From the NCBI RefSeq assembly GCF_947488715.1, contig NZ_CANLAG010000002.1:310001-374000 (forward strand): 64,000 nucleotides of DNA. Direction: 5' to 3'. Source of the stretch: an uncultured Tateyamaria sp. (GTDB lineage: Bacteria > Pseudomonadota > Alphaproteobacteria > Rhodobacterales > Rhodobacteraceae). Position numbers and translations under genes: made by a program. Within the stretch, counting starts at the first letter, position 1. Each line of letters starts with the position of its first letter. A model generated the notes under the pieces. The model had not been told where the DNA came from and ran no database searches. It saw nothing but the letters and a program-made list of their open reading frames with translations. Positions 5,472-23,955 of the stretch are shown here, in pieces.

Positions 5472-5532
5472 TGTGTTTGCGGCGGGGTGTTCGGCTTGCC
5501 TGCTGTCTGAGTTGAGCGGAACAGTTGGCACG

Positions 5533-5566
5533 AAAAAAGCACGGTACGCCGAAGCGCACCGTGCTT
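5533..5566 (-). terminator. Terminator of the outer-membrane barrel gene
   Basis: On the minus strand, AAGCACGGT-G-CGC pairs with GCG-T-ACCGTGCTT around a TTCG loop, followed by a run of six T residues. It lies 57 bp after the stop of the gene ending at 5623. Confidence 0.9.
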
Positions 5567-5622
5567 ACATCTGACGCATCAGCGCCCGGCCTCTGGGGGA
5601 GGATCGGCCGGGGCGCGTGCGC

Positions 5623-6225
5623 TCAGAACCGGATGGATCCCCGCAGGGTCAGGGTTGTGGCGTCGGCATCCACACCGCTGCCGCCGATGTCGTCGAAGCT
5701 GTGCTCCAGCAATTCGGCACCCACGACGTAGCGGTCCGTGATTTGGTAGGCGACGCCGATCCCGTAGAACTCTCCGCTTTCTGAACCGATCGAGGTGTCG
5801 ACATCTGCGACGCCTGCGGTGACGTATCCCAGCGCCGGGCCAAAGTCATAGCCAGCTTTCAGTTTCAGACGCGCCACGCTGTCGACGCTTGCGGCACCGT
5901 TCAGGTCGATGTCGGCAAAGTCGTAGTCCAGTTCGCCGCCCAGAACGAAGGTGCCGAAATCGTAGTTGTAGCCCAGGTGAACACCGCCGAGGACGTCATC
6001 ACCATCCGCAGCACCCGAACCATTCACGTCGCCGTAGCCCAATTGCACACCGCCATAAGCGCCAGTCCAATCGCCGCCCAATGCAGGCAGGGGTGCGGGT
6101 GGTGGTGGTGCAGTTGGCGCAGGCGCGTCGGCAACGGGTGTGTCAAAGCCGCCCGCAAGGACTGGCGTTGTGGACAATGCCACCAAGGCCGCCAGCGATG
6201 TTGCAGGGATTGTACGCATTTTCAT
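5623..6225 (-). CDS. Outer-membrane beta-barrel protein
   Basis: This 200-residue protein has a cleavable signal peptide (about residues 1-24, ending TPVLA), a Pro/Ala-rich spacer (30-48), and a barrel domain with alternating aromatic and polar strands. It ends in phenylalanine (LRGSIRF), the usual outer-membrane assembly signal. The pattern fits the small 8-stranded OmpA-like/opacity family; no OmpA peptidoglycan-binding domain follows. An AAGGAG site lies seven bases before the ATG at 6225. It is monocistronic, with its own strong terminator. Ligand or function cannot be read from the sequence. Confidence 0.85.
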   Translation of the reverse strand: MKMRTIPATSLAALVALSTTPVLAGGFDTPVADAPAPTAPPPPAPLPALGGDWTGAYGGVQLGYGDVNGSGAADGDDVLGGVHLGYNYDFGTFVLGGELDYDFADIDLNGAASVDSVARLKLKAGYDFGPALGYVTAGVADVDTSIGSESGEFYGIGVAYQITDRYVVGAELLEHSFDDIGGSGVDADATTLTLRGSIRF

Positions 6226-6247
6226 TTATCTGCTCCTTTGGTCGTCG

Positions 6248-6278
6248 TGTCACAGGCCCTTTGAGGCCTGCTGTGACA
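6248..6278. promoter_or_regulatory. Inverted repeat upstream of the barrel gene
   Basis: TGTCACAG (6248-6255) and CTGTGACA (6271-6278) are perfect complements, with GCC and GGC also able to pair inside. It lies 23-53 bp upstream of the barrel start codon, so it may be an operator or a 5' leader hairpin that affects translation. Confidence 0.45.
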
Positions 6279-6542
6279 ACAACTGGGGAGTTCGCGGCGT
6301 GGTTCCAGAGGCAGTGTGGGTCGGGTGCTAAACTGGGCAATGGACCGCACAAATGCGCGCAGGCACTGCGCGGCGCACCGCCGTTGGGGCGTCGCAAATG
6401 GGACAGACAGGCGACGTTTTGCGCATCAAGCTTACAAACAACGCCGCACTGCAACGGGACGTGAGGGAGGTCTGTCGTGCAAGGATGTCGATGCAAGATC
6501 GCACTTGTGTGCCGTACCATCGGTGCAGAGCGTGGTCGTGCG

Positions 6543-6592
6543 GCGCGGGGACGACCCGCGCGGGATTGAGTTTGTCACCCACTGTCTAGACA
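6543..6592 (+). promoter_or_regulatory. Hairpin and palindrome before the MttB-family gene
   Basis: GCGCGGG (6543-6549) pairs with CCCGCGC (6555-6561). A perfect 10-bp palindrome TGTCTAGACA follows at 6583-6592, ending 19 bp before the start codon at 6612. The palindrome is a plausible operator. The rest of the 386-bp gap 6226-6611 contains no convincing gene. Confidence 0.4.
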
Positions 6593-6611
6593 CCAACTTC
6601 GGATTCCAAAC

Positions 6612-8150
6612 ATGAACGATCAATCCACTTCGCGCGCTGGCGGCCGCGCGGCACGCCGTGCAGCGCGTGCAGCACCGCTGGCTGACCATCTTCGACCCAT
6701 CCGCCCCGGCCTTGAGGGCGGGCTGTATAACCCACTGTCCGCCGCCGAGATGGAGCGCATCCACCATGCAGCCCTTGATGCGCTGGAACGCGTGGGGCTG
6801 GCGGATGCGCCCGAAAGCGGCGTTGCCTATCTCACCAAAGCGGGCGCCATTCAGGGCGATGACGGTCGCATACGCTTTCCGCGCGCGCTGGTTGAGGACA
6901 TGTTGGCCAAGGCCAATCGTACCATCACGCTGCATGCCCGCGACCCGCGCCATGACATGCGTCTGAGTGGTGGACGGGTGCATTACGGCACTGCAGGTGC
7001 GGCTGTGCATGTGGTTGAGCCGGACGGTGAGTCCTACCGAGATTCCACGGTGCAGGATTTGCACGACGCGGCGCGGATCGCGGATCAGTTGGACAACATC
7101 CACTTTTTCCAGCGACCTATGATCTGTCGCGACATCCCGGACACCTGCGAGATGGAGTACAATTCGATCTTTGCCTGCGTCACGGGCACGACCAAGCATA
7201 TTGGCACCAGCTTTTCCGAGCCGCAGTTTGTCGCGCCAGCCATTGAAATGCTGCACGAGATTGCGGGTGGTGAGGGGGCGTGGCGGGAACGGCCATTTGT
7301 GTCCAATTCCAACTGTTTTGTCGTGCCACCAATGAAGTTTGCGCCCGAAAGCTGTCAGGTGATGGAGGAGTGCATCAAGCACGGTATGCCGGTTCTGCTG
7401 CTCTCTGCGGGGATGGCGGGGGCGACCGCGCCGTCGACGATTGCGGGTGCCATTGTGCAAGCGACCGCTGAGTGTCTGGCGGGACTTGTTTACGTGAATG
7501 CGATCAGCCCTGGTGCGCCAGCAATTTTTGGCACATGGCCCTTTGGTTTGGACCTGCGCACAGGCGCGATGTCGATCGGTTCGGGTGAGCAGGCGCTGTT
7601 GACCGCGGGTTGCGGCCAGATGCACCGGTTCTACGATTTGCCGGGTGGGGCCGCGGGCGGTGCATCCGACAGCAAGTTGCCAAATATGCAGGCCGGATGG
7701 GAACAGATGTGTTCCAACCTGACAGCGGGCTTGTCTGGGGTGAACCTTGTCTATGAGGCGGCGGGTATGCATGCGTCGCTGCTTGGGTTTTGCCCCGAAA
7801 GCTTGATCCTTGGCGATGACATCATCGGTCAGGCGATGCGGTGTGTACGCGGGATCGAAGTCACGGACGAGACATTGGCCGTCGATCAGATCGCGGACGT
7901 TTGTCTGTCCGGGACCGGCCACTACCTTGGGACAGAACAGACGCTCAGCCGGATGCAGAGCGACTATGTCTATCCGACATTCGGCGACCGGACGTCGCCC
8001 AAGGAGTGGGTTGAACTGGGCAAGCCGGCACTGCTGGACCGGGCCAAGGCCCGCAAGGCTGAGATACTGTCGCAACCGTCGCGAGCCGCGCTGGACCCAA
8101 CAGTCGAGGCGACGATACGTGCGCGGCTGAACATTCACCTGCCTGGCTGA
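6612..8150 (+). CDS. Trimethylamine methyltransferase (MttB) family protein
   Basis: This 512-residue protein matches the MttB/COG5598 family over its whole length. Members transfer a methyl group from a quaternary or tertiary amine to a corrinoid protein. There is no in-frame amber codon, so it is a non-pyrrolysine homologue; characterised relatives act on glycine betaine and similar compounds. No corrinoid protein or reactivase gene is adjacent, so its partner must be elsewhere. The start at 6612 lacks a clear Shine-Dalgarno. A perfect hairpin separates its stop from the convergent aminotransferase gene. The substrate is unknown. Confidence 0.85.
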   Translation: MNDQSTSRAGGRAARRAARAAPLADHLRPIRPGLEGGLYNPLSAAEMERIHHAALDALERVGLADAPESGVAYLTKAGAIQGDDGRIRFPRALVEDMLAKANRTITLHARDPRHDMRLSGGRVHYGTAGAAVHVVEPDGESYRDSTVQDLHDAARIADQLDNIHFFQRPMICRDIPDTCEMEYNSIFACVTGTTKHIGTSFSEPQFVAPAIEMLHEIAGGEGAWRERPFVSNSNCFVVPPMKFAPESCQVMEECIKHGMPVLLLSAGMAGATAPSTIAGAIVQATAECLAGLVYVNAISPGAPAIFGTWPFGLDLRTGAMSIGSGEQALLTAGCGQMHRFYDLPGGAAGGASDSKLPNMQAGWEQMCSNLTAGLSGVNLVYEAAGMHASLLGFCPESLILGDDIIGQAMRCVRGIEVTDETLAVDQIADVCLSGTGHYLGTEQTLSRMQSDYVYPTFGDRTSPKEWVELGKPALLDRAKARKAEILSQPSRAALDPTVEATIRARLNIHLPG

Positions 8151-8162
8151 ACGCAATGGCTG

Positions 8163-8185
8163 TACGGGCGCTGCGCGCGCCCGTA
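8163..8185. terminator. Hairpin between convergent genes
   Basis: TACGGGCGC (8163-8171) and GCGCCCGTA (8177-8185) form a perfect 9-bp stem with a 5-nt loop, exactly filling the space between the convergent stop codons. It has no T-run on either side, but its position suggests a bidirectional terminator or mRNA end stabiliser. Confidence 0.55.
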
Positions 8186-9361
8186 TCACGCAGCGGCGCG
8201 GCTTTCGGCAAAGCTGCAGACGGTGCGCAGTGCGTCTTCGAATGCGCTGTCGTCGATGGTCATGGCCACGCGCACATGACCTGCGGCAGCCGCACCAAAG
8301 CTTTCACCCGGCATGACGGCGATGTGGTGTGTGTCCAGCAGCGCATTGGCGAAATCGTCACCGCTGAGGCCGGTCGCCCTCACGTCCAGCATGAGGTACA
8401 TCGCACCCTGCGCCGGGATCAGACCGACAGTGTTTTGCCCTGCTAGAACCCCGTGCGCAATGGCCCGCCTGCGACGGAAGGGAGCAGCGATTTCATCTTC
8501 GAATTCAGGGCCTTGGCCCAGTGCAAAAACGCTGGCGTCCTGAATGAACCCCGGCACCCCATAGGTCGTGTGGGTGGCAAAGGTGATCAGATGCGCAATC
8601 ATATCCTCTGGCCCGATCAGCCAGCCACAGCGTGACCCGGTCATCGCGTGGCTCTTGGACATTGAACCGACCACCAGCGTGCGCTTGGCCATATCCGGCA
8701 AAGCGCGGGGCGACAGATGCGTGCCGTCCCAAATCTGACTGTCATAGACCTCGTCCGAGATCAGCCATAGGTCGTGATCCTGACACACACCTGCAATCCC
8801 GGTCATGGTGTCGTGCGAATAGACAGTGCCGGTCGGATTGTTGGGCGAGTTGATCAGCAGCGACGTGGCCCCGTCACAGGCGGCGGCGATGTCGCTGGCG
8901 CGTGGCTGAAACGCGTCCTCGGCACGGGTAATGATCGCGCGCGGCACAGCGGACACACCACGCAAAGTGCCGGGGTAGGTGGCATAGTAGGGATCGAGGT
9001 AAAGCGCCACATCGCCTGGATCACACGCTGCCGCATGCGCAGCAAAAAGCGCCGACTGACCACCGGGTGTGATCAGCACATTGTCGCGACTGGTCGGCAC
9101 GCCGGTGCGCGCCTCGGTGCGTGCGGCAACTGCGTCGCGCAACGTGTCTGTGCCCGGCACCATCGCGTAACCTGTGTGTCCGCCCATGGCGCTTGCGTGC
9201 ATGTCCTGAAGGATCGGTGCCGCCGTTCGAATGTCGTGTTCGCCGATGGTCAATTCCGTCACTGGCGTGCCTTCGGCAATCATTTTGCGAGCTTTGATAA
9301 ACACGTCCCAACCGTCAGATCCACCGCCAGTCAGGGTCGTCAATCGTTGGGACAGATTCAT
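8186..9361 (-). CDS. Pyridoxal-phosphate aminotransferase, class I/II
   Basis: This 391-residue fold-type I aminotransferase has the cofactor-binding motifs NSPNNPTG (about residue 165), SDEVYD, and the Schiff-base lysine in SMSKSHAMTGSRCGW. C-terminal GESFG and HVRVAM are also typical. The closest recognisable group is the aspartate/aromatic aminotransferases, but the amino donor cannot be assigned. It runs convergent to the MttB-family gene, with no operon partner. The start at 9361 opens directly into the family N-terminus (MNLSQRL). Confidence 0.9.
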   Translation of the reverse strand: MNLSQRLTTLTGGGSDGWDVFIKARKMIAEGTPVTELTIGEHDIRTAAPILQDMHASAMGGHTGYAMVPGTDTLRDAVAARTEARTGVPTSRDNVLITPGGQSALFAAHAAACDPGDVALYLDPYYATYPGTLRGVSAVPRAIITRAEDAFQPRASDIAAACDGATSLLINSPNNPTGTVYSHDTMTGIAGVCQDHDLWLISDEVYDSQIWDGTHLSPRALPDMAKRTLVVGSMSKSHAMTGSRCGWLIGPEDMIAHLITFATHTTYGVPGFIQDASVFALGQGPEFEDEIAAPFRRRRAIAHGVLAGQNTVGLIPAQGAMYLMLDVRATGLSGDDFANALLDTHHIAVMPGESFGAAAAGHVRVAMTIDDSAFEDALRTVCSFAESRAAA

Positions 9362-9459
9362 GGCACGCTCCGATCAGATTTCAACGCCAAGGACGCAGAG
9401 CCAACAGCCATTGTCAACACGTGAGCGGGCCGCGATATGGCCTACAGGAGGTCATCCGT

Positions 9460-9822
9460 TCACGACCCGTCGTTGTCTTGCCAGGCGGCGAGTTCTGCCT
9501 GCACTTTTTTGGGCAGGCTGGCGCGGATCAGGCCGTATGACGTGTGGATACGTTCGGCAAATTCACCGGCGTCTTTCGTGCCAAAAGGGATGCGGACCCA
9601 GGACCGGTGAAAATACTTGGCCTTCTCTGCGGCGCCGATCTCGATCAAAAACGCGGCTGTATCCACGCTGTCGCATTTGACCGAAACGCCGTCGTTTGAC
9701 TGACCGATACAGGCAAACATCTTGCCGCCAACTTTCCACGCATCGAGGCCACCGTCGTGGTGGCTGGCCCAGTGGGCGCCGGGCAGGGCGCGGCAAATCT
9801 TGTCTACGGTTTCGCGTGTCAT
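9460..9822 (-). CDS. MmcQ/YjbR family protein
   Basis: This 120-residue protein begins MTRETVDKICRALPGA and contains HDGGLDAWKVGGKMFA and a C-terminal SYGLIRASLPKK segment, all characteristic of the YjbR (CyaY-like fold) family. Members are often annotated as DNA-binding, but a defined role is lacking. A GTG at 9855 would extend the protein by 11 residues; the ATG at 9822 gives the standard family start. It is a single gene, divergent from cysS. Confidence 0.8.
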   Translation of the reverse strand: MTRETVDKICRALPGAHWASHHDGGLDAWKVGGKMFACIGQSNDGVSVKCDSVDTAAFLIEIGAAEKAKYFHRSWVRIPFGTKDAGEFAERIHTSYGLIRASLPKKVQAELAAWQDNDGS

Positions 9823-10036
9823 GTCTGGAAGGTGGCGTATCAGATCGCGGGACACAAGGCTTGACCAGGTGGCCCGTGCCGCGTTAGGCCTGTCGTATGA
9901 CCCGGACCACTTGCATCACTTGCTGCATTATCTGCTGATCCTTTCAGCGGGCCGGTTCTTTGTTTCCATGACATACAAGAGTTGATAGGCCCGCGCCAAC
10001 CGCGCGCCCCTTGCGCATATGCCTGATGAGGTCCTG

Positions 10037-11425
10037 ATGGACATTCAACTTTACAACACCGCAACACGACGCAAGGACACGTTTGTCCCCATCGATCCGG
10101 CCAACGTGCGGATGTATCTGTGCGGGCCGACGGTCTATGACCGCGCCCATCTCGGCAATGCGCGTCCCGTTCTGGTGTTTGATGTGCTGAGCCGCCTTTT
10201 GCGCCACGTCTATGGTGAAAGCGCGGTGACATATGTGCGCAATTTCACCGACGTGGATGACAAGATCAACGCCACCGCATTGGCCCGCAAAGAGGCCGGA
10301 GCCAAAGGCACGCTCGAAGAGCTGGTGGCAGAGCGATCTGATGAGACAATTGGGTGGTATCACGCGGATATGGATGCGCTTGGCGCGCTGCGTCCGGATC
10401 ACGAACCCCGCGCGACGGCATTTATCTCGCAGATGGTCGATATGATTGCCGACCTGATCACCAAGGGCTTTGCCTACGAAAATGACGGCCATGTGCTGTT
10501 CCGGGTGCGGGCCTATGAGGCGTATGGCGCGCTGTCGGGCCGGTCAGTGGACGACATGATCGCAGGCGCGCGGGTCGAGGTCGCGCCCTACAAGGAAGAC
10601 CCGATGGATTTTGTCCTGTGGAAGCCGTCGGATGATGCGCTGCCGGGGTGGGACAGTCCGTGGGGACGTGGGCGTCCGGGATGGCACATCGAATGCTCAG
10701 CCATGGCCTATGAGTTGTTGGGCGACCGTTTCGACATTCATGGCGGCGGGAACGACCTGCAATTCCCGCACCATGAGAATGAGATTGCACAGTCAAAATG
10801 CGCAGGCCACGGCTTTGCAAACGTGTGGATGCACAACGAGATGTTGCAGGTCGAGGGCAAGAAAATGTCCAAGTCCTTGGGCAATTTCTTTACTGTGCGC
10901 GATCTGCTGGATCAGGGTGTGCCGGGTGAGGTGATCCGCTTTGTCATGCTGTCGACGCACTATCGCAAGCCGATGGATTGGACAGGAAAGAAAGCCAAAG
11001 ATGCGGCAAGAGTTTTGCGAAAGTGGCGCGCTGTGACGGACGAAGTCGATGTTAATCAGCCGCCATCGGACGAGTTTTTGCGAACTTTACTTGATGACGT
11101 GAACACTGCAGGCGCGATTGCCGTCTTGCACGATTTGTTCAATCAGGGGTGCTTCGGAGAACTAAAGGCGAGTGCCGCTATGATTGGCTTGTTGAACAAT
11201 GGCATGGGTGAGTGGATTAATCGCCCAGGAGTAGTTTTAGATGCGCTTACGGAACGTTTGTCGCAAGCCCGCGCCAAGGCAATGGAAACAAAAGACTTTA
11301 CCGAGGTTGATCGATTGAAGGCCGCATATTTGGATGCAGGCGTTGAAGTTCGGATGAGTAAAGATGGCATTGTACTTGGCGCCGATCTTGATGCGGACCT
11401 TAGCAAATTGGACTCATTCCTATGA
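10037..11425 (+). CDS. cysS: Cysteinyl-tRNA synthetase
   Basis: This 462-residue class Ia synthetase attaches cysteine to tRNA-Cys. It has the HIGH-type motif ([14 protein letters not shown]), zinc-site residues ([26 protein letters not shown]) and KMSKS ([10 protein letters not shown]). GAGG lies five bases before the chosen ATG; an ATG 18 bases upstream is less well placed. The last 380 or so bases, the anticodon-binding region, are visibly lower in GC and use TTA, CTA and GTA codons that are rare elsewhere in the window, suggesting recombination or relaxed constraint there. Confidence 0.97.
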
Positions 11426-18930: not shown

Positions 18931-19006
18931 TGATCGCGATCTCGTGAGGCCATGATCCCGACGGATCAGGTAGTGTCGAACGATGGCGCAGTGGGTTGGG
19001 ACAGCG

Positions 19007-19567
19007 ATGCGATTTTTGACGGCTTTTGCCATGCTGGTGTCTTTGGTGGGGCAGGCGGCGCAGGCACAGATTTTGCAGGGCAAGATCTTTCGACAGTCCG
19101 GCGCTGGCACGTTTGTCCTTTTGCCAACGGATCAGCCTTTTGTCGTCGGTGCGGATACGTTTGACGACGACAACCTGTACGGTTTCGACGAAGATCAGAA
19201 CATCACCTTGATCGAACCGGTGCGCGTGGACATCGGCAATGCGCGTGGGTTCATCCCGGCAGGCACGACGGTCGCCAGCCACTACGTGTTTTTCGACAGC
19301 CTGTCCGGCGTGCATATGGGATATGTTGACTTTGATGCGCCCATACTCGGTGTCGCGGCGTTTCAGGACACGATGGGGGCCACGGATTTCCTCGCCAATA
19401 CCAATGTCACTTACATCAGCGAAGAATTGCGTGGCCTGGAAGAGGGCGATCAGGTGTGGGTTGATCAAAGACTACCGACCCGTTTGTGGGTCTATTGGGC
19501 GGGTTCATCGCCGGGTGACTATGTGCGGGTGTTTACCGAACGCTCACCCGGCGCGTTGCTCATGTAG
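19007..19567 (+). CDS. Exported protein of unknown function
   Basis: This 186-residue protein has a clear signal peptide (MRFLTAFAMLVSLVGQAAQA, cleavage after QAAQA) and a mature part rich in beta-prone and acidic stretches (DTFDDDNLYGFDEDQN). No known domain is recognised. An ATG at 18983 would add eight residues; 19007 is preferred because it gives a compact signal peptide preceded by GGGAC. It is convergent with xth, with only 8 bp between stops. Confidence 0.7.
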   Translation: MRFLTAFAMLVSLVGQAAQAQILQGKIFRQSGAGTFVLLPTDQPFVVGADTFDDDNLYGFDEDQNITLIEPVRVDIGNARGFIPAGTTVASHYVFFDSLSGVHMGYVDFDAPILGVAAFQDTMGATDFLANTNVTYISEELRGLEEGDQVWVDQRLPTRLWVYWAGSSPGDYVRVFTERSPGALLM

Positions 19568-19575
19568 CGCAAGGC

Positions 19576-20358
19576 TTACGCGGCCAGTTGCACCCAAACT
19601 GGAACGTGATCGGATGGTTTTTCTTCGCCGCGCACCTGTTTGTCGATCTGGCAGTCGACCATCATGTCGACACAGCCGGGCGACATCAGGAAATGGTCAA
19701 TGCGGATGCCATCATCGCGATTCCAGGCACCAGCCTGATAGTCCCAGAACGAATAGTGACCCGGCCCATGCGTGCGTGCACGGAACGCTTCGGTCAAACC
19801 CAGGTTGAGAAGGCGGCGATACGCTGTGCGGCTTTCCAGTTTGAAAAGGGCATCTTCGCGCCATGCATCCGGACGCTTGGTGTCTTCGGCCTGCGGAATG
19901 ATGTTATAGTCGCCGGCCATCAAAAACGGGGTCTCTTCGGCCAGCAATACAGTTGCGCGTTGGCGCAGGCGTTCCATCCACGCCAGTTTGTAGTCGTATT
20001 TTGGTCCGGGTGTCGGATTTCCGTTTGGCAGGTATAGCCCGCAGATACGCACGGCCTGAGTGTCGCCCATAACCGTGGCTTCGATATACCGTGCCTGTTC
20101 ATCCGTCTCATCGCCCGGCAAACCACGCGTGACATCTTCAAGCGGCAGCTTTGACAGGATCGCCACGCCATTGAACGACTTTTGCCCGTGCGTTTCGACA
20201 TTGTATCCGCGGTCTTCAAAGATTTCGCGCGGGAAGTTTTCATCGACTGACTTGATCTCTTGCAGCAAGACCACGTCCGGTGCCGCCGTATCCAACCAGC
20301 GCGGCAGGGCCTCGATCCGGGCCTTGATCCCGTTGATGTTGAATGTCGCGATCTTCAT
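19576..20358 (-). CDS. xth: Exodeoxyribonuclease III
   Basis: This 260-residue EEP-fold nuclease cleaves at abasic sites and digests 3' ends in base-excision repair. Hallmarks are MKIATFNINGIKAR, LLQEIKSVDENFP, LPNGNP, GDYNIIP and RIDHFLMSP, with final SDHVPVW. The start follows a GGGGGT ribosome site; a GTG two codons upstream is also possible. Upstream lies the AT-rich region before the repeat-protein islet. Confidence 0.95.
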   Translation of the reverse strand: MKIATFNINGIKARIEALPRWLDTAAPDVVLLQEIKSVDENFPREIFEDRGYNVETHGQKSFNGVAILSKLPLEDVTRGLPGDETDEQARYIEATVMGDTQAVRICGLYLPNGNPTPGPKYDYKLAWMERLRQRATVLLAEETPFLMAGDYNIIPQAEDTKRPDAWREDALFKLESRTAYRRLLNLGLTEAFRARTHGPGHYSFWDYQAGAWNRDDGIRIDHFLMSPGCVDMMVDCQIDKQVRGEEKPSDHVPVWVQLAA

Positions 20359-20518
20359 GGCCACCCCCTGTCGTCACTCTGCTGATACCAGTGACCTATC
20401 GGATAATTGTTCGCAAGAGGGCGTTGCGACAGACAATTAATAAATTCTTAACCATTTGATTCGGGCGGATTTATAGAAAACTTGAACCGAAACGGGCCAA
20501 ATCGGCCATGTATAACTT

Positions 20519-20703: not shown

Positions 20704-21225
20704 ATGACCGCCCAACGTAAATCTGTCATCGTTCACACCAGCTCTGACATCAGCGCTGCGCACTCTGGGGACGCTGTTGAAATGTTCTCGTCGGGGAGCA
20801 TGCCGCAGACCTCTGACCTGTTGATGGGCGACGCCACGGCGCTGTTCTCGTCAGGCTCGGCGCCAACCATGGCAGCATGCGGCGCAACCGGTGACGCAAC
20901 AGAAATGTTCTCTTCCGGCTCCGCACCAACTGCAACGGATGCAACCTGCGGCGATGCCGTCCAAATGTTCTCATCAGGGTCGGCCCCGATGGCGTCGGAC
21001 GCCGCCAGCGGTGACGCAATCGAGATGTTTTCGTCAGGCTCTGCGCCGACAGCATCCGACCTGTCCGCAGGCGATGCGACGCACATGTTTTCGTCCGGCT
21101 CTGCCCCTGTGACGTCCGATGCGACCAGCGGCGACGCGACCGAGATGTTTTCCTCCGGTTCGGCCCCCACAACAGGCACCGTGGCAGAAGGCGCCGTAAC
21201 CGGCCTCTTTTCCTCGGGCTCCTGA
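20704..21225 (+). CDS. Repeat protein with eight FSSGS units
   Basis: This 173-residue protein consists of a leader of about 21 residues (MTAQRKSVIVHTSSDISAAH) and eight tandem units of 20 residues (one of 21). The unit reads roughly GDATEMFSSGSAPTASDATS, with FSSGS invariant at phenylalanines 28, 48, 69, 89, 109, 129, 149 and 169. The chain ends exactly on the last FSSGS. There is no signal peptide or membrane segment, and only two Cys (59, 82). AAGGA precedes the ATG. A helical protein gene follows 50 bp downstream. The layout suits a multicore modified-peptide precursor or a beta-solenoid. I cannot assign a function. Confidence 0.85.
   Translation: MTAQRKSVIVHTSSDISAAHSGDAVEMFSSGSMPQTSDLLMGDATALFSSGSAPTMAACGATGDATEMFSSGSAPTATDATCGDAVQMFSSGSAPMASDAASGDAIEMFSSGSAPTASDLSAGDATHMFSSGSAPVTSDATSGDATEMFSSGSAPTTGTVAEGAVTGLFSSGS
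20767..21222 (+). repeat. In-frame 60-bp tandem repeat array
   Basis: Eight degenerate copies of a 60-bp unit (one of 63 bp) encode the FSSGS repeats. The copies differ at many third positions (TTC/TTT, TCG/TCC/TCT/TCA) while the peptide motif is unchanged, so the protein repeat is under selection rather than freshly duplicated. Confidence 0.9.
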
Positions 21226-21275: not shown

Positions 21276-22361
21276 ATGTCAAATATCATTGCCTTCACTG
21301 CCCCCACCCGGCGCCAATACCTGGCGGAACGCATTCCGGCGCTGATCGACTGTTTCGCACGTCAGCGCCGGGTTCAGGACGATGTCTTCTGGCTCAAGGA
21401 AAATGCGGAAATCCTCAATATACTTGAGTGTACAGGGCAATCTGTGCCCCAAGCGGCACTGGAACCGCTTGGGCATTTCTATGCCGGACTGGCTGATCGG
21501 ATCGGGTTCTTTCCTCAGTACTACCGGTTCTTGCTGTCCATTGGCCTCGATCTGGAAGATCTGGGTATGCCGGGCGGGCAAATGGAAGGGTTGTGCGACT
21601 GGGCAAGCCAACGTGGATTGCCGGATGCAGAGTTGAGCGATCTGCAACGCGCCGAAGCGCGCCGCCTCTTGGCGCGCCGTGGTGTGCGCACGACCGCTGC
21701 GGATGCGGGGTTGGATGATAGGCTGCGCGCCTTTGTGCAGCGCACCGATACATTCGCCTTGCCGAACAAAAAGGCCGCCTATGAGCTGACCCATATCGTG
21801 TTTTACCTGTCGGAATATGGACGGCGGGATCCGATGATCGGTGAGGCCGGGCGTATCAGCCTAGAGTTCGCAGGCATCACCGCTTTCCTCGATCAAAACG
21901 TCGATTTGTTGGCAGAGATCTGCGTAGCATTGCGGCAAGCGGGGCATCGGCCCAACCCACTTTGGGTGGCAGCAGTACGGCACGGTTTGGCGAGCTTTGA
22001 AATTCTTGAAGATAACCATGCGCCACTGACGGATGGGTATCACGAATACCTCGTGTCGTCCTGGGCGATGGCCGTGATGAACATTGATGATCCACTTGCG
22101 CCTGTCTCGAGTACGCGCTGCACCTTTGCGCGTCCCGCCACGGACAGCGGGGCATTGCGTGGGATGTCTGCGGCACTGCTTGGGCTCGCGGATGCGCGAT
22201 CAGGGTCCTGGTCGCACATGCAGGACGCGATCTATGCCATGCTCGACGACGATGCGGCACTCACCCTGTCCGAGGCCGCAGCAGCCAGCCCGCATTTCGA
22301 AGCGTACTTTGAAGGGTTCGCGCGGGCAGGGAAAACCCAAAGCCTTGCGCGGTTCGGTTAA
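21276..22361 (+). CDS. Helical protein of unknown function, partner of the repeat protein
   Basis: This 361-residue, probably all-helical soluble protein begins MSNIIAFTAPTRRQYLAERI. A conspicuous segment KKAAYELTHIVFYLSEYGRRDP lies at about residues 166-187. The ELTH-FYL pattern reminds me of helical proteins annotated beside some peptide-natural-product genes, but that is a weak impression. AAGGA precedes the start, and 50 bp separate it from the repeat gene, so they are likely co-transcribed. There is no signal peptide and no recognisable catalytic motif. Confidence 0.75.
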   Translation: MSNIIAFTAPTRRQYLAERIPALIDCFARQRRVQDDVFWLKENAEILNILECTGQSVPQAALEPLGHFYAGLADRIGFFPQYYRFLLSIGLDLEDLGMPGGQMEGLCDWASQRGLPDAELSDLQRAEARRLLARRGVRTTAADAGLDDRLRAFVQRTDTFALPNKKAAYELTHIVFYLSEYGRRDPMIGEAGRISLEFAGITAFLDQNVDLLAEICVALRQAGHRPNPLWVAAVRHGLASFEILEDNHAPLTDGYHEYLVSSWAMAVMNIDDPLAPVSSTRCTFARPATDSGALRGMSAALLGLADARSGSWSHMQDAIYAMLDDDAALTLSEAAAASPHFEAYFEGFARAGKTQSLARFG

Positions 22362-22407: not shown

Positions 22408-22731
22408 TCACATCGAGAATGACGTGCCGCAGCCGCAAGAGCTGGTCGCATTTGGGTTTTCGATGACAAAGCGTGCACCAATCAGTTCCTCGGAAAAGTC
22501 GATCACGGCGTTTGACAGGAACGGAAGGCTGATGCTGTCCACGACGACCTTTTGGCCGGACCCTTCGAGGATCAGATCGTCGTCCTTGGGCGCATCCAGC
22601 GCAATCTCGTACTGAAACCCAGAGCAACCACCGCCCTCGACTGCCACACGCAGGGCCTGTCCCTGATCGGCGGCACCGATTTCGGCAAGACGCTCAAAGG
22701 CGCGGGGCGTGACCGTTGGGGGCAATTGCAT
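22408..22731 (-). CDS. erpA: A-type iron-sulfur carrier protein
   Basis: This 107-residue HesB/IscA-fold protein delivers Fe-S clusters to apo-enzymes. The three cluster-binding cysteines are in GGGCSGFQY and the C-terminal SSCGCGTSFSM. Its length fits the ErpA/IscA family; the ErpA name is the common one for this Rhodobacteraceae copy, but IscA-type cannot be excluded by eye. It is divergent from dgt. Confidence 0.88.
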   Translation of the reverse strand: MQLPPTVTPRAFERLAEIGAADQGQALRVAVEGGGCSGFQYEIALDAPKDDDLILEGSGQKVVVDSISLPFLSNAVIDFSEELIGARFVIENPNATSSCGCGTSFSM

Positions 22732-22815
22732 CGCATTTCTCCGAAAAGGCGCGTTTTAACTTCGCTGCAACTGCAATATATGGTGCGCAGGAACAGGCGA
22801 CAAGGATCAGCAGAC

Positions 22816-23955
22816 ATGACTGCGCCATATGCTTCTGATCCCGCACATGCGCGCGGGCGGCGGTGGCCTGAAGAAGAGCTGCCTTTCAGGTCGTCTTTTC
22901 AACGTGACCGGGACCGCATCATTCATGCATCCGCCTTTCGCCGCCTCAAGCACAAGACCCAGGTGTTCGTTGAGCACGAAGGGGACTATTACCGCACGCG
23001 GTTGACCCACTCGATCGAGGTGGCTCAGGTCGCGCGCACAATTGCCGGTGCTTTGGGGCTGAACGACTGCCTGACCGAAGCGGTGGCCCTCGCACACGAT
23101 CTGGGCCATCCGCCATTTGGCCATACGGGTGAGGATGCCTTGCAGGCGTTGATGCAACCCTACGGCGGCTTTGATCACAATGCGCAGGCGATCAAGATCG
23201 TGACCCAGCTTGAGTGTCACTATGCCGACTTTGATGGCCTCAACCTGACGTGGGAGTGTCTCGAAGGCATTGCCAAGCACAATGGGCCGGTGACGGGCGC
23301 GCTGCCCTATGCGCTGGCCGAATACGATGCGGAACATGATCTGGAACTGGCGACCCATGCCAGTGCAGAGGCGCAGGTCGCCGCGCTGTCGGATGATATT
23401 GCCTACAACAACCATGATCTGCACGACGGTCTGCGCGCGGGTCTGTTCACAGAGGCGGATATTGTCGGACTACCGATCATCGGGCCCGCGTTCTCGGCTG
23501 TCGATCGTAAGTACCCGGACCTTGACCCCATACGGCGCCGTCACGAGGCGCTGCGCCGGGTGTTCGGAGCGATGGTCAGTGATGTTGTTGAAACCTCTCG
23601 TGTCCTGTTGGCGGACAGCGGTGCGCAGGATGTGGTTGATATTCGCCACCTCGGACGTCCCGTTGTGCGTTTTTCTGAGCAGTTATGGACTGACCTGAAC
23701 GCCATCCGCTCGTTTCTGTTTCACAACATGTATCGCGCACCGTCCGTGATGGAGAAACGCCAAGAGGTGACGCTGGTCGTGCATGACCTGTTCCCGCTTT
23801 TTTTGAACCAACCGCATCTGCTGCCCGACCGCTGGGGGCGGGACGTCGCAAAGGCGGACGGTGACAAGACGGCGCTGGCCCGCATCATCGCGGATTACAT
23901 CGCCGGTATGACGGACCGCTTTGCCTTGCAGGAACATGCGCGCCTGATCGGCTAA
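22816..23955 (+). CDS. dgt: Deoxyguanosinetriphosphate triphosphohydrolase-like protein
   Basis: This 379-residue HD-domain phosphohydrolase releases tripolyphosphate from dNTPs. Metal ligands are visible as RLTHSIEVAQVAR (His65) and AHDLGHPPFGHTGE (His94-Asp95), with a further Asp in LSDDIAYNNHDL. AAGGA is nine bases before the ATG at 22816; the frame is open far upstream but without family sequence. With nrdJ and dcd in this window it points to dNTP-pool control. Confidence 0.93.
   Translation: MTAPYASDPAHARGRRWPEEELPFRSSFQRDRDRIIHASAFRRLKHKTQVFVEHEGDYYRTRLTHSIEVAQVARTIAGALGLNDCLTEAVALAHDLGHPPFGHTGEDALQALMQPYGGFDHNAQAIKIVTQLECHYADFDGLNLTWECLEGIAKHNGPVTGALPYALAEYDAEHDLELATHASAEAQVAALSDDIAYNNHDLHDGLRAGLFTEADIVGLPIIGPAFSAVDRKYPDLDPIRRRHEALRRVFGAMVSDVVETSRVLLADSGAQDVVDIRHLGRPVVRFSEQLWTDLNAIRSFLFHNMYRAPSVMEKRQEVTLVVHDLFPLFLNQPHLLPDRWGRDVAKADGDKTALARIIADYIAGMTDRFALQEHARLIG

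Follow-up and report, generated by a model that had tools for sequence, protein, structure and literature searches.

Multicore RiPP precursors are known from the cyanobactins, the fungal dikaritins and the epichloecyclins, and the FXSXX-COOH/FxsB cyclophane peptides share the family pattern F-x-S-x-x at the C-terminus. Among peptide epimerases, MslH, the lasso-peptide epimerase of MS-271, is described in an extract of PMC10406935 as working by acid/base chemistry with two His/Asp pairs, in a calcineurin-like fold. A member of the DUF6895 family is also a lasso-peptide epimerase, according to the title of Shi et al., ACS Catal. 2026, which stands in the references of PMC13352647. In the open-access papers searched, DUF6895 occurs in this one title, and DUF6902 and the precursors treated below are not described there.

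The locus considered here lies in the window, i.e., the whole analysed stretch of 64,000 nucleotides, and resembles the multicore RiPPs in its leader, its repeated near-identical short cores, their conserved flanks and its partner enzyme. Unlike them, it comes without a known RiPP enzyme class or a recognisable protease, is placed in a chromosomal housekeeping slot, and exists in about 40 core types, with the differences running through all copies. On balance, we regard it as fairly probable that this is a small RiPP-like system of the multicore kind, with DUF6902 as the enzyme that modifies the cores, probably by epimerisation. The features of the cassette in the window are as follows:

20704..21225, plus strand: multicore precursor gene, 173 aa with eight FSSGS cores, ORF confirmed
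20704..20766, plus strand: non-repeat leader, residues 1–21, starting MTAQRK
20785..20799, plus strand: core 1, FSSGS
20845..20859, plus strand: core 2, FSSGS
20908..20922, plus strand: core 3, FSSGS
20968..20982, plus strand: core 4, FSSGS
21028..21042, plus strand: core 5, FSSGS
21088..21102, plus strand: core 6, FSSGS
21148..21162, plus strand: core 7, FSSGS
21208..21222, plus strand: core 8, FSSGS, forming the protein's C-terminus
21276..22361, plus strand: DUF6902 protein, 361 aa, likely core-modifying enzyme, DUF6895 homologue, 50 bp past the precursor stop

The eight FSSGS units with an invariant core and varying codons and linkers, as described in the first-pass annotation, were confirmed. 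Over all unit pairs, the FSSGS codons were identical in 42 comparisons, synonymous in 98 and non-synonymous in none, and the linker codons (positions −13 to −7) were identical in 15, synonymous in 32 and non-synonymous in 149 of 196. Since the FSSGS codons vary freely and the linker changes are mostly non-synonymous, selection on the peptide is indicated, and not recent duplication of the DNA; that is to say, the FSSGS cores are under strong purifying selection. When the window protein was shuffled 20,000 times, FSSGS appeared once in 138 shuffles and twice in none. FSSGS starts at residues 28, 48, 69, 89, 109, 129, 149 and 169, with spacings of 20, 21, 20, 20, 20, 20 and 20, and the 20-residue period first proposed thus holds for six of the seven spacings, the other being 21. 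The pentapeptide had been taken as the selected unit; it is indeed invariant, but the conserved unit is longer, G-D-A-x-x-M/L-FSSGS-A-P in most window units. The protein ends exactly on the last FSSGS and shows by eye no signal-like hydrophobic stretch at its N-terminus, both as first annotated. The precursor gene is single-copy in the host genome. Its product has a single Lys and a single Arg, both within residues 1–6, and would therefore escape peptide analysis based on trypsin. NCBIfam gave no match to the window precursor or the window DUF6902 protein, and, in the search for known defence or phage families, PADLOC gave no match and PHROGs one weak match to the precursor (E 0.0027, unknown function).

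The C-terminal FSSGS of the window precursor fits F-x-S-x-x-COOH, the pattern of the FXSXX/FxsB family, by which the core would become a Phe-x-Ser cyclophane matured by a radical SAM enzyme encoded elsewhere in the genome. However, with the FxsB model TIGR04269 the window's genome yields nothing at E 0.001, and none of 20 cassette genomes has a match over cut-off; weaker matches occur in 12 of these 20, one of them, in G018, close to the cut-off, and also in 11 of 14 control genomes, again with none over cut-off. Moreover, Phe is absent from 8 of the 154 readable cores. The cyclophane explanation is accordingly scarcely credible overall, and for the window's genome, with no TIGR04269 match, it is close to refuted.

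As for the neighbouring enzyme, it had been stated that no recognised modifying enzyme is adjacent, except for an unknown helical protein downstream. This statement should be revised, as the helical protein is Pfam DUF6902 (PF21843, 496.4 bits, over the curated cut-off of 27) and, by its sequence relationships, likely the modifying enzyme. The same protein matches DUF6895 (PF21836) at 69.5 bits (cut-off 23.8, E 4.1e-19), and comparison of the two family profiles gave a probability of 95 and an E of 2.4e-8 over 184 columns. Invariant residues common to both families are Y169, H173, G182, D210, E214, Y255 and H256. Judged from these profiles and residues, DUF6902 is homologous to DUF6895 over the Y..H..G..D..E..YH core. 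The predicted structure of DUF6902 is confident and almost all helix, which bears out the helical character first assigned to it, and the fold neighbours among the matches listed are alpha/alpha-toroid-type helical proteins, e.g., terpene cyclases and protein farnesyltransferase beta chains. Among solved structures searched by sequence, nothing credible was found for DUF6902 (two matches, E 0.22 and 0.39).

Set against MslH as described in the extract cited above, DUF6902 also conserves two His and several acidic residues, whereas MslH is calcineurin-like and the DUF6902 model is almost all helix with alpha/alpha-toroid-type neighbours. With the DUF6895 epimerase, described to that extent by its title, DUF6902 has in common the homologous domain and the invariant Tyr, His, Gly, Asp, Glu, Tyr and His; it differs in being a separate Pfam family at a locus without lasso enzymes, since neither lasso cyclase nor leader peptidase genes were found at the locus in the window scan or in the 73-locus exemplars. 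The proposed substrate also differs, being a multicore repeat protein for DUF6902, in contrast to the short, W/Y-rich ORFs that stand next to DUF6895 in other phyla.

Of the 11 DUF6895 places considered (proteobacteria, Pseudalkalibacillus, Streptomyces, Gemmatirosa), 8 have a small ORF immediately in front of the DUF6895 gene; the places without such an ORF are L233 and two below-cut-off matches, L229 and L230. BLAST linked 4 of 28 pairs of these small ORFs at E ≤0.01, and 20 shuffled control runs gave one such match. Since such ORFs stand upstream of DUF6895 and some are linked, members of the DUF6895 superfamily may generally be paired with a short ribosomal substrate. It was also observed that the small ORFs before DUF6895 at L231:5602-5862, L232:5747-5953, L226 and L227, from several phyla, have a leader-like segment and an aromatic tail in common, and that the leader-like segment is doubled in L226 and L227. 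A fuller-looking DUF6895 cluster occurs in the alphaproteobacterium L225 (about 5490-10576, with a DUF6895 match), where a methyltransferase-like ORF and a cysteine-protease-like ORF (by eye), a small GPWF-ending ORF and two overlapping ORFs were seen.

For the distribution of the cassette, 37 genomes of the host family were compared, and precursor and DUF6902 were present together in 22 and both absent in 15. One of the 15 negative genomes has a weak precursor-like match (E 8.7e-4, 30% identity) inside a 1507-aa frame, which looks unrelated to the precursor. Within the genus, 18 of the 19 further genomes sampled contain a precursor homologue. DUF6902 occurs in 81 of the 292 genomes of the host-order sample, in 80 of them over cut-off, and over cut-off in 3 of the 289 class-sample genomes, all three from the host family. 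It was not found on plasmids. Separately, L261 (G018), of the same genus, was seen to hold an FxsB-like radical SAM gene (349.9 bits, cut-off 370).

The position of the cassette is set by three flanking genes, for which the homologue counts refer to 73 twenty-kb DUF6902 loci:

19576..20364, minus strand: exonuclease III-type flank (Exo_endo_phos), homologue in 72 of 73 loci
22408..22731, minus strand: iron-sulphur assembly flank (Fe-S_biosyn, erpA-like), homologue in 71 of 73 loci
22807..23955, plus strand: HD-domain dNTPase-like flank (dgt-like), homologue in 71 of 73 loci

In 20 genomes lacking the cassette, the exonuclease gene was found in all 20, and in 14 of them it is preceded on its own strand by the Fe-S gene, at 35 to 1344 bp; in a cassette-less genome of the same genus the distance from Fe-S to exonuclease gene is 35 bp. 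Because the flanks are conserved with and without the cassette, the cassette occupies a fixed chromosomal slot and can be missing as a unit. The window neighbours named in the Pfam scan are repair, translation and metabolic genes, and so are the neighbour-cluster exemplars in the 73 loci; such a housekeeping-gene slot is unusual for a natural-product cluster and counts against the RiPP-like reading. In the cassette-less loci L244, L248, L249 and L251, other single genes stand between the Fe-S and exonuclease genes, and the slot ORFs of L249 and L251 are related to each other and sulfotransferase-like by eye. The window also holds, at 18983-19567 on the plus strand, an ORF of 194 aa whose N-terminus is signal-like and which has no match in Pfam. 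A hairpin between precursor and enzyme was considered and rejected: 140 intergenic stretches gave a mean z of −0.70 (27 below −2) against +1.28 in the window, and therefore no consistent intergenic element is present.

The precursor family was followed over 158 DUF6902 loci, which comprise two partly overlapping genome sets (77 and 80) and the window; one locus, L160, is masked and unreadable. The relatives used were the best 80 of 377, from which A2 took 42 and A4 took 23, each together with the window. Left out were L098 (contig end), L107 (in pieces) and L109 (fragment), none with a full-length DUF6902, as well as L176 (open at a contig end) and L149 (odd start). The enzyme tree was built on 146 distinct DUF6902 enzymes. 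A repeated five-residue core is present in the ORF just upstream of DUF6902 in 154 of the 157 readable loci. L091 has two near-identical cores there and L122 two unlike ones, and at L088 no precursor is visible in the stretch from the DUF6902 gene to the exonuclease gene. The M[TSN]x-x-x-K start of the window leader recurs in 101 of 155 precursors, and the gap from precursor to enzyme is 30–110 bp in 147 of 155 (median 63). The homologues keep their repeats, and none of the refuting outcomes named in the first annotation was encountered. The first annotation's idea of a multicore RiPP-type precursor has thus gained strong comparative support from the co-occurrence, the repeat ORFs upstream, the core switching described below and the homology of the partner.

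The main core is present in from 2 copies upward per precursor (median 6). In 99 of 155 precursors the last residue is also the last of a core; in the other 56 it is not, FTSWS-type precursors, for example, running a few residues beyond the last core. Among the 146 distinct enzymes there are 40 core types, for example FSSGS, FTSWS, FTSGL, FTTSM, FSTSS, FTCGL, FCSAS and IMSAS. With the registers of L101, L113, L156, L165 and three other shifted words set by hand, residue 1 is Phe in 146 of the 154 readable cores and residue 3 is Ser, Thr or Cys in all 154.

The core-to-core distance is 20 or 21 in 676 of 781 cases, and AlphaFold draws about two strands per unit of the precursor; this spacing and strand pattern also suit a structural repeat, and on these grounds the beta-solenoid alternative of the first annotation was retained. 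According to it, the precursor would stay whole as a beta-solenoid or repeat protein, FSSGS would be a fixed turn or stacking motif, and DUF6902 a chaperone or partner. However, the model is of low confidence, with a mean pLDDT of 58, a pTM of 0.52 and no residue at 90 or above, and the structure prediction thus offers no confident known fold for the precursor. Among the 137 precursors with at least three copies, 15 have an 8-residue spacing and 85 more than one spacing. Moreover, structural need alone would not explain why there are about 40 core types, nor why close relatives differ by FSSGS against FTSGS throughout their units. The poor model and the 8-residue spacings, weighed against the strands and the regular spacing, make the structural repeat less likely, and we consider it improbable.

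Within one precursor the cores are largely alike: of 917 in-register units, 856 repeat the main core of their own precursor and 61 differ, under a rule that admits a unit if at least three of its five positions agree with the main core and so favours sameness; with a looser admission rule the count is 872 of 952. Mixed precursors exist, e.g., FSTSS with FSSGS at the end. Between precursors, the core type tracks the enzyme tree, needing 51 changes where 30 shuffles gave 99 or more. In all 40 enzyme pairs that are more than 75% identical and have different main cores, pairs not independent of each other, neither precursor contains the core of the other. In L173 and L174, where the enzymes are 95.5% identical and the DNA 88–90% identical, the cores are FSSGS in 6 of 6 units and FTSGS in 7 of 7, respectively, and the first and last units can be aligned. 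This sameness within a precursor, together with variation between species, suggests that the identity of the product matters as a unit; that the product is a signal or recognition peptide is speculation. Such switching in all copies makes the concerted evolution of short peptide repeats directly testable.

Turning to the chemistry, modification of the cores by DUF6902 is likely from sequence relationships, and epimerisation as its reaction, taken by analogy from a distant homologue known by title, is held to be about evenly balanced or below that. Alternatively, DUF6902 might modify the cores by another chemistry, such as metal-dependent oxidation, crosslinking or glycosylation-like transfer at Ser, Thr or Cys. 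The constant Ser, Thr or Cys at residue 3 and the prevailing Phe at residue 1 agree with this, the conserved His/Asp/Glu set could bind a metal, and the fold neighbours named above are chemically varied. Epimerisation is nevertheless the sole named function in the homologous family, as far as the title of Shi et al. goes, and a non-epimerising chemistry is judged possible but somewhat unlikely.

Amino acids and small metabolites are known cargo of EamA-type carriers, which would suit a very small product. An EamA-type transporter ORF abuts DUF6902 in 93 of 157 loci (41 of 77 and 52 of 79 in the two sets), with its start between 60 bp ahead of and about 80 bp beyond the stop of DUF6902, e.g., L193:7032-7961 and L112:10715-11713. 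At L193, which belongs to Ruegeria pomeroyi, the precursor gene is present as well. All 10 abutting ORFs scanned are Pfam EamA; NCBIfam gave a single, weak match to such ORFs. Mapped on the enzyme tree, the presence of this neighbour changes 8 times, compared with 40 times or more in shuffles, and the median distance from DUF6902 to the Fe-S gene is 955 bp with EamA and 23 without. The cassette of the window lacks the EamA gene, and the exonuclease-gene loci of the 20 cassette-less genomes gave no EamA match. No gene of the cassette is recognisable as a protease, though five of the neighbour-cluster exemplars lack a Pfam name.

The RiPP-like reading preferred here can be set out as follows. 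The ribosomal precursor encoded by gene 1 consists of a short leader and tandem five-residue cores; gene 2 is DUF6902, its constant companion in the genomes tested; and gene 3, present in more than half of the loci but not in the window, is that of the EamA-type transporter. DUF6902 may bind the leader or the G-D/E-x-x-x-M/L before each core and modify the cores one after another. The likeliest chemistry would be a cofactor-light epimerisation, L to D, of one residue of the core, perhaps the third or one close to it, with the conserved His and acidic residues H173, D210, E214 and H256 as putative catalysts within a fold that may be of the alpha/alpha-toroid type. Small identical peptides would next be cut out by proteases from elsewhere, and the EamA protein, where present, would export them. 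Release and export of short core peptides are plausible, and a signalling role for them is speculative. As regards RiPP membership, a ribosomal precursor with a leader and conserved cores is found, and so is a dedicated enzyme alongside, by linkage and co-occurrence with a homologue of the peptide-epimerase family, whose activity we infer. Besides the genomic slot, the mixed cores, the 56 precursors with off-core ends, L088, the lack of a cassette protease and the lack of EamA in the window count against this reading. A bolder version, in which DUF6902 epimerises each core and the D-residue pentapeptides are exported as species-typed signals of a Rhodobacterales core-genome system, with pheromone-like type switching, is distinctly improbable.

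In summary, the repeated-core precursors together with DUF6902 point to an undescribed family of gene-encoded, enzyme-modified peptides. The roughly 40 natural core types, matched to 146 enzymes, form a ready set for studying the substrate range of one enzyme family. If the reading is true, DUF6902 would acquire a function, and abundant marine bacteria would turn out to carry a RiPP-like system that is very small and vertically placed.
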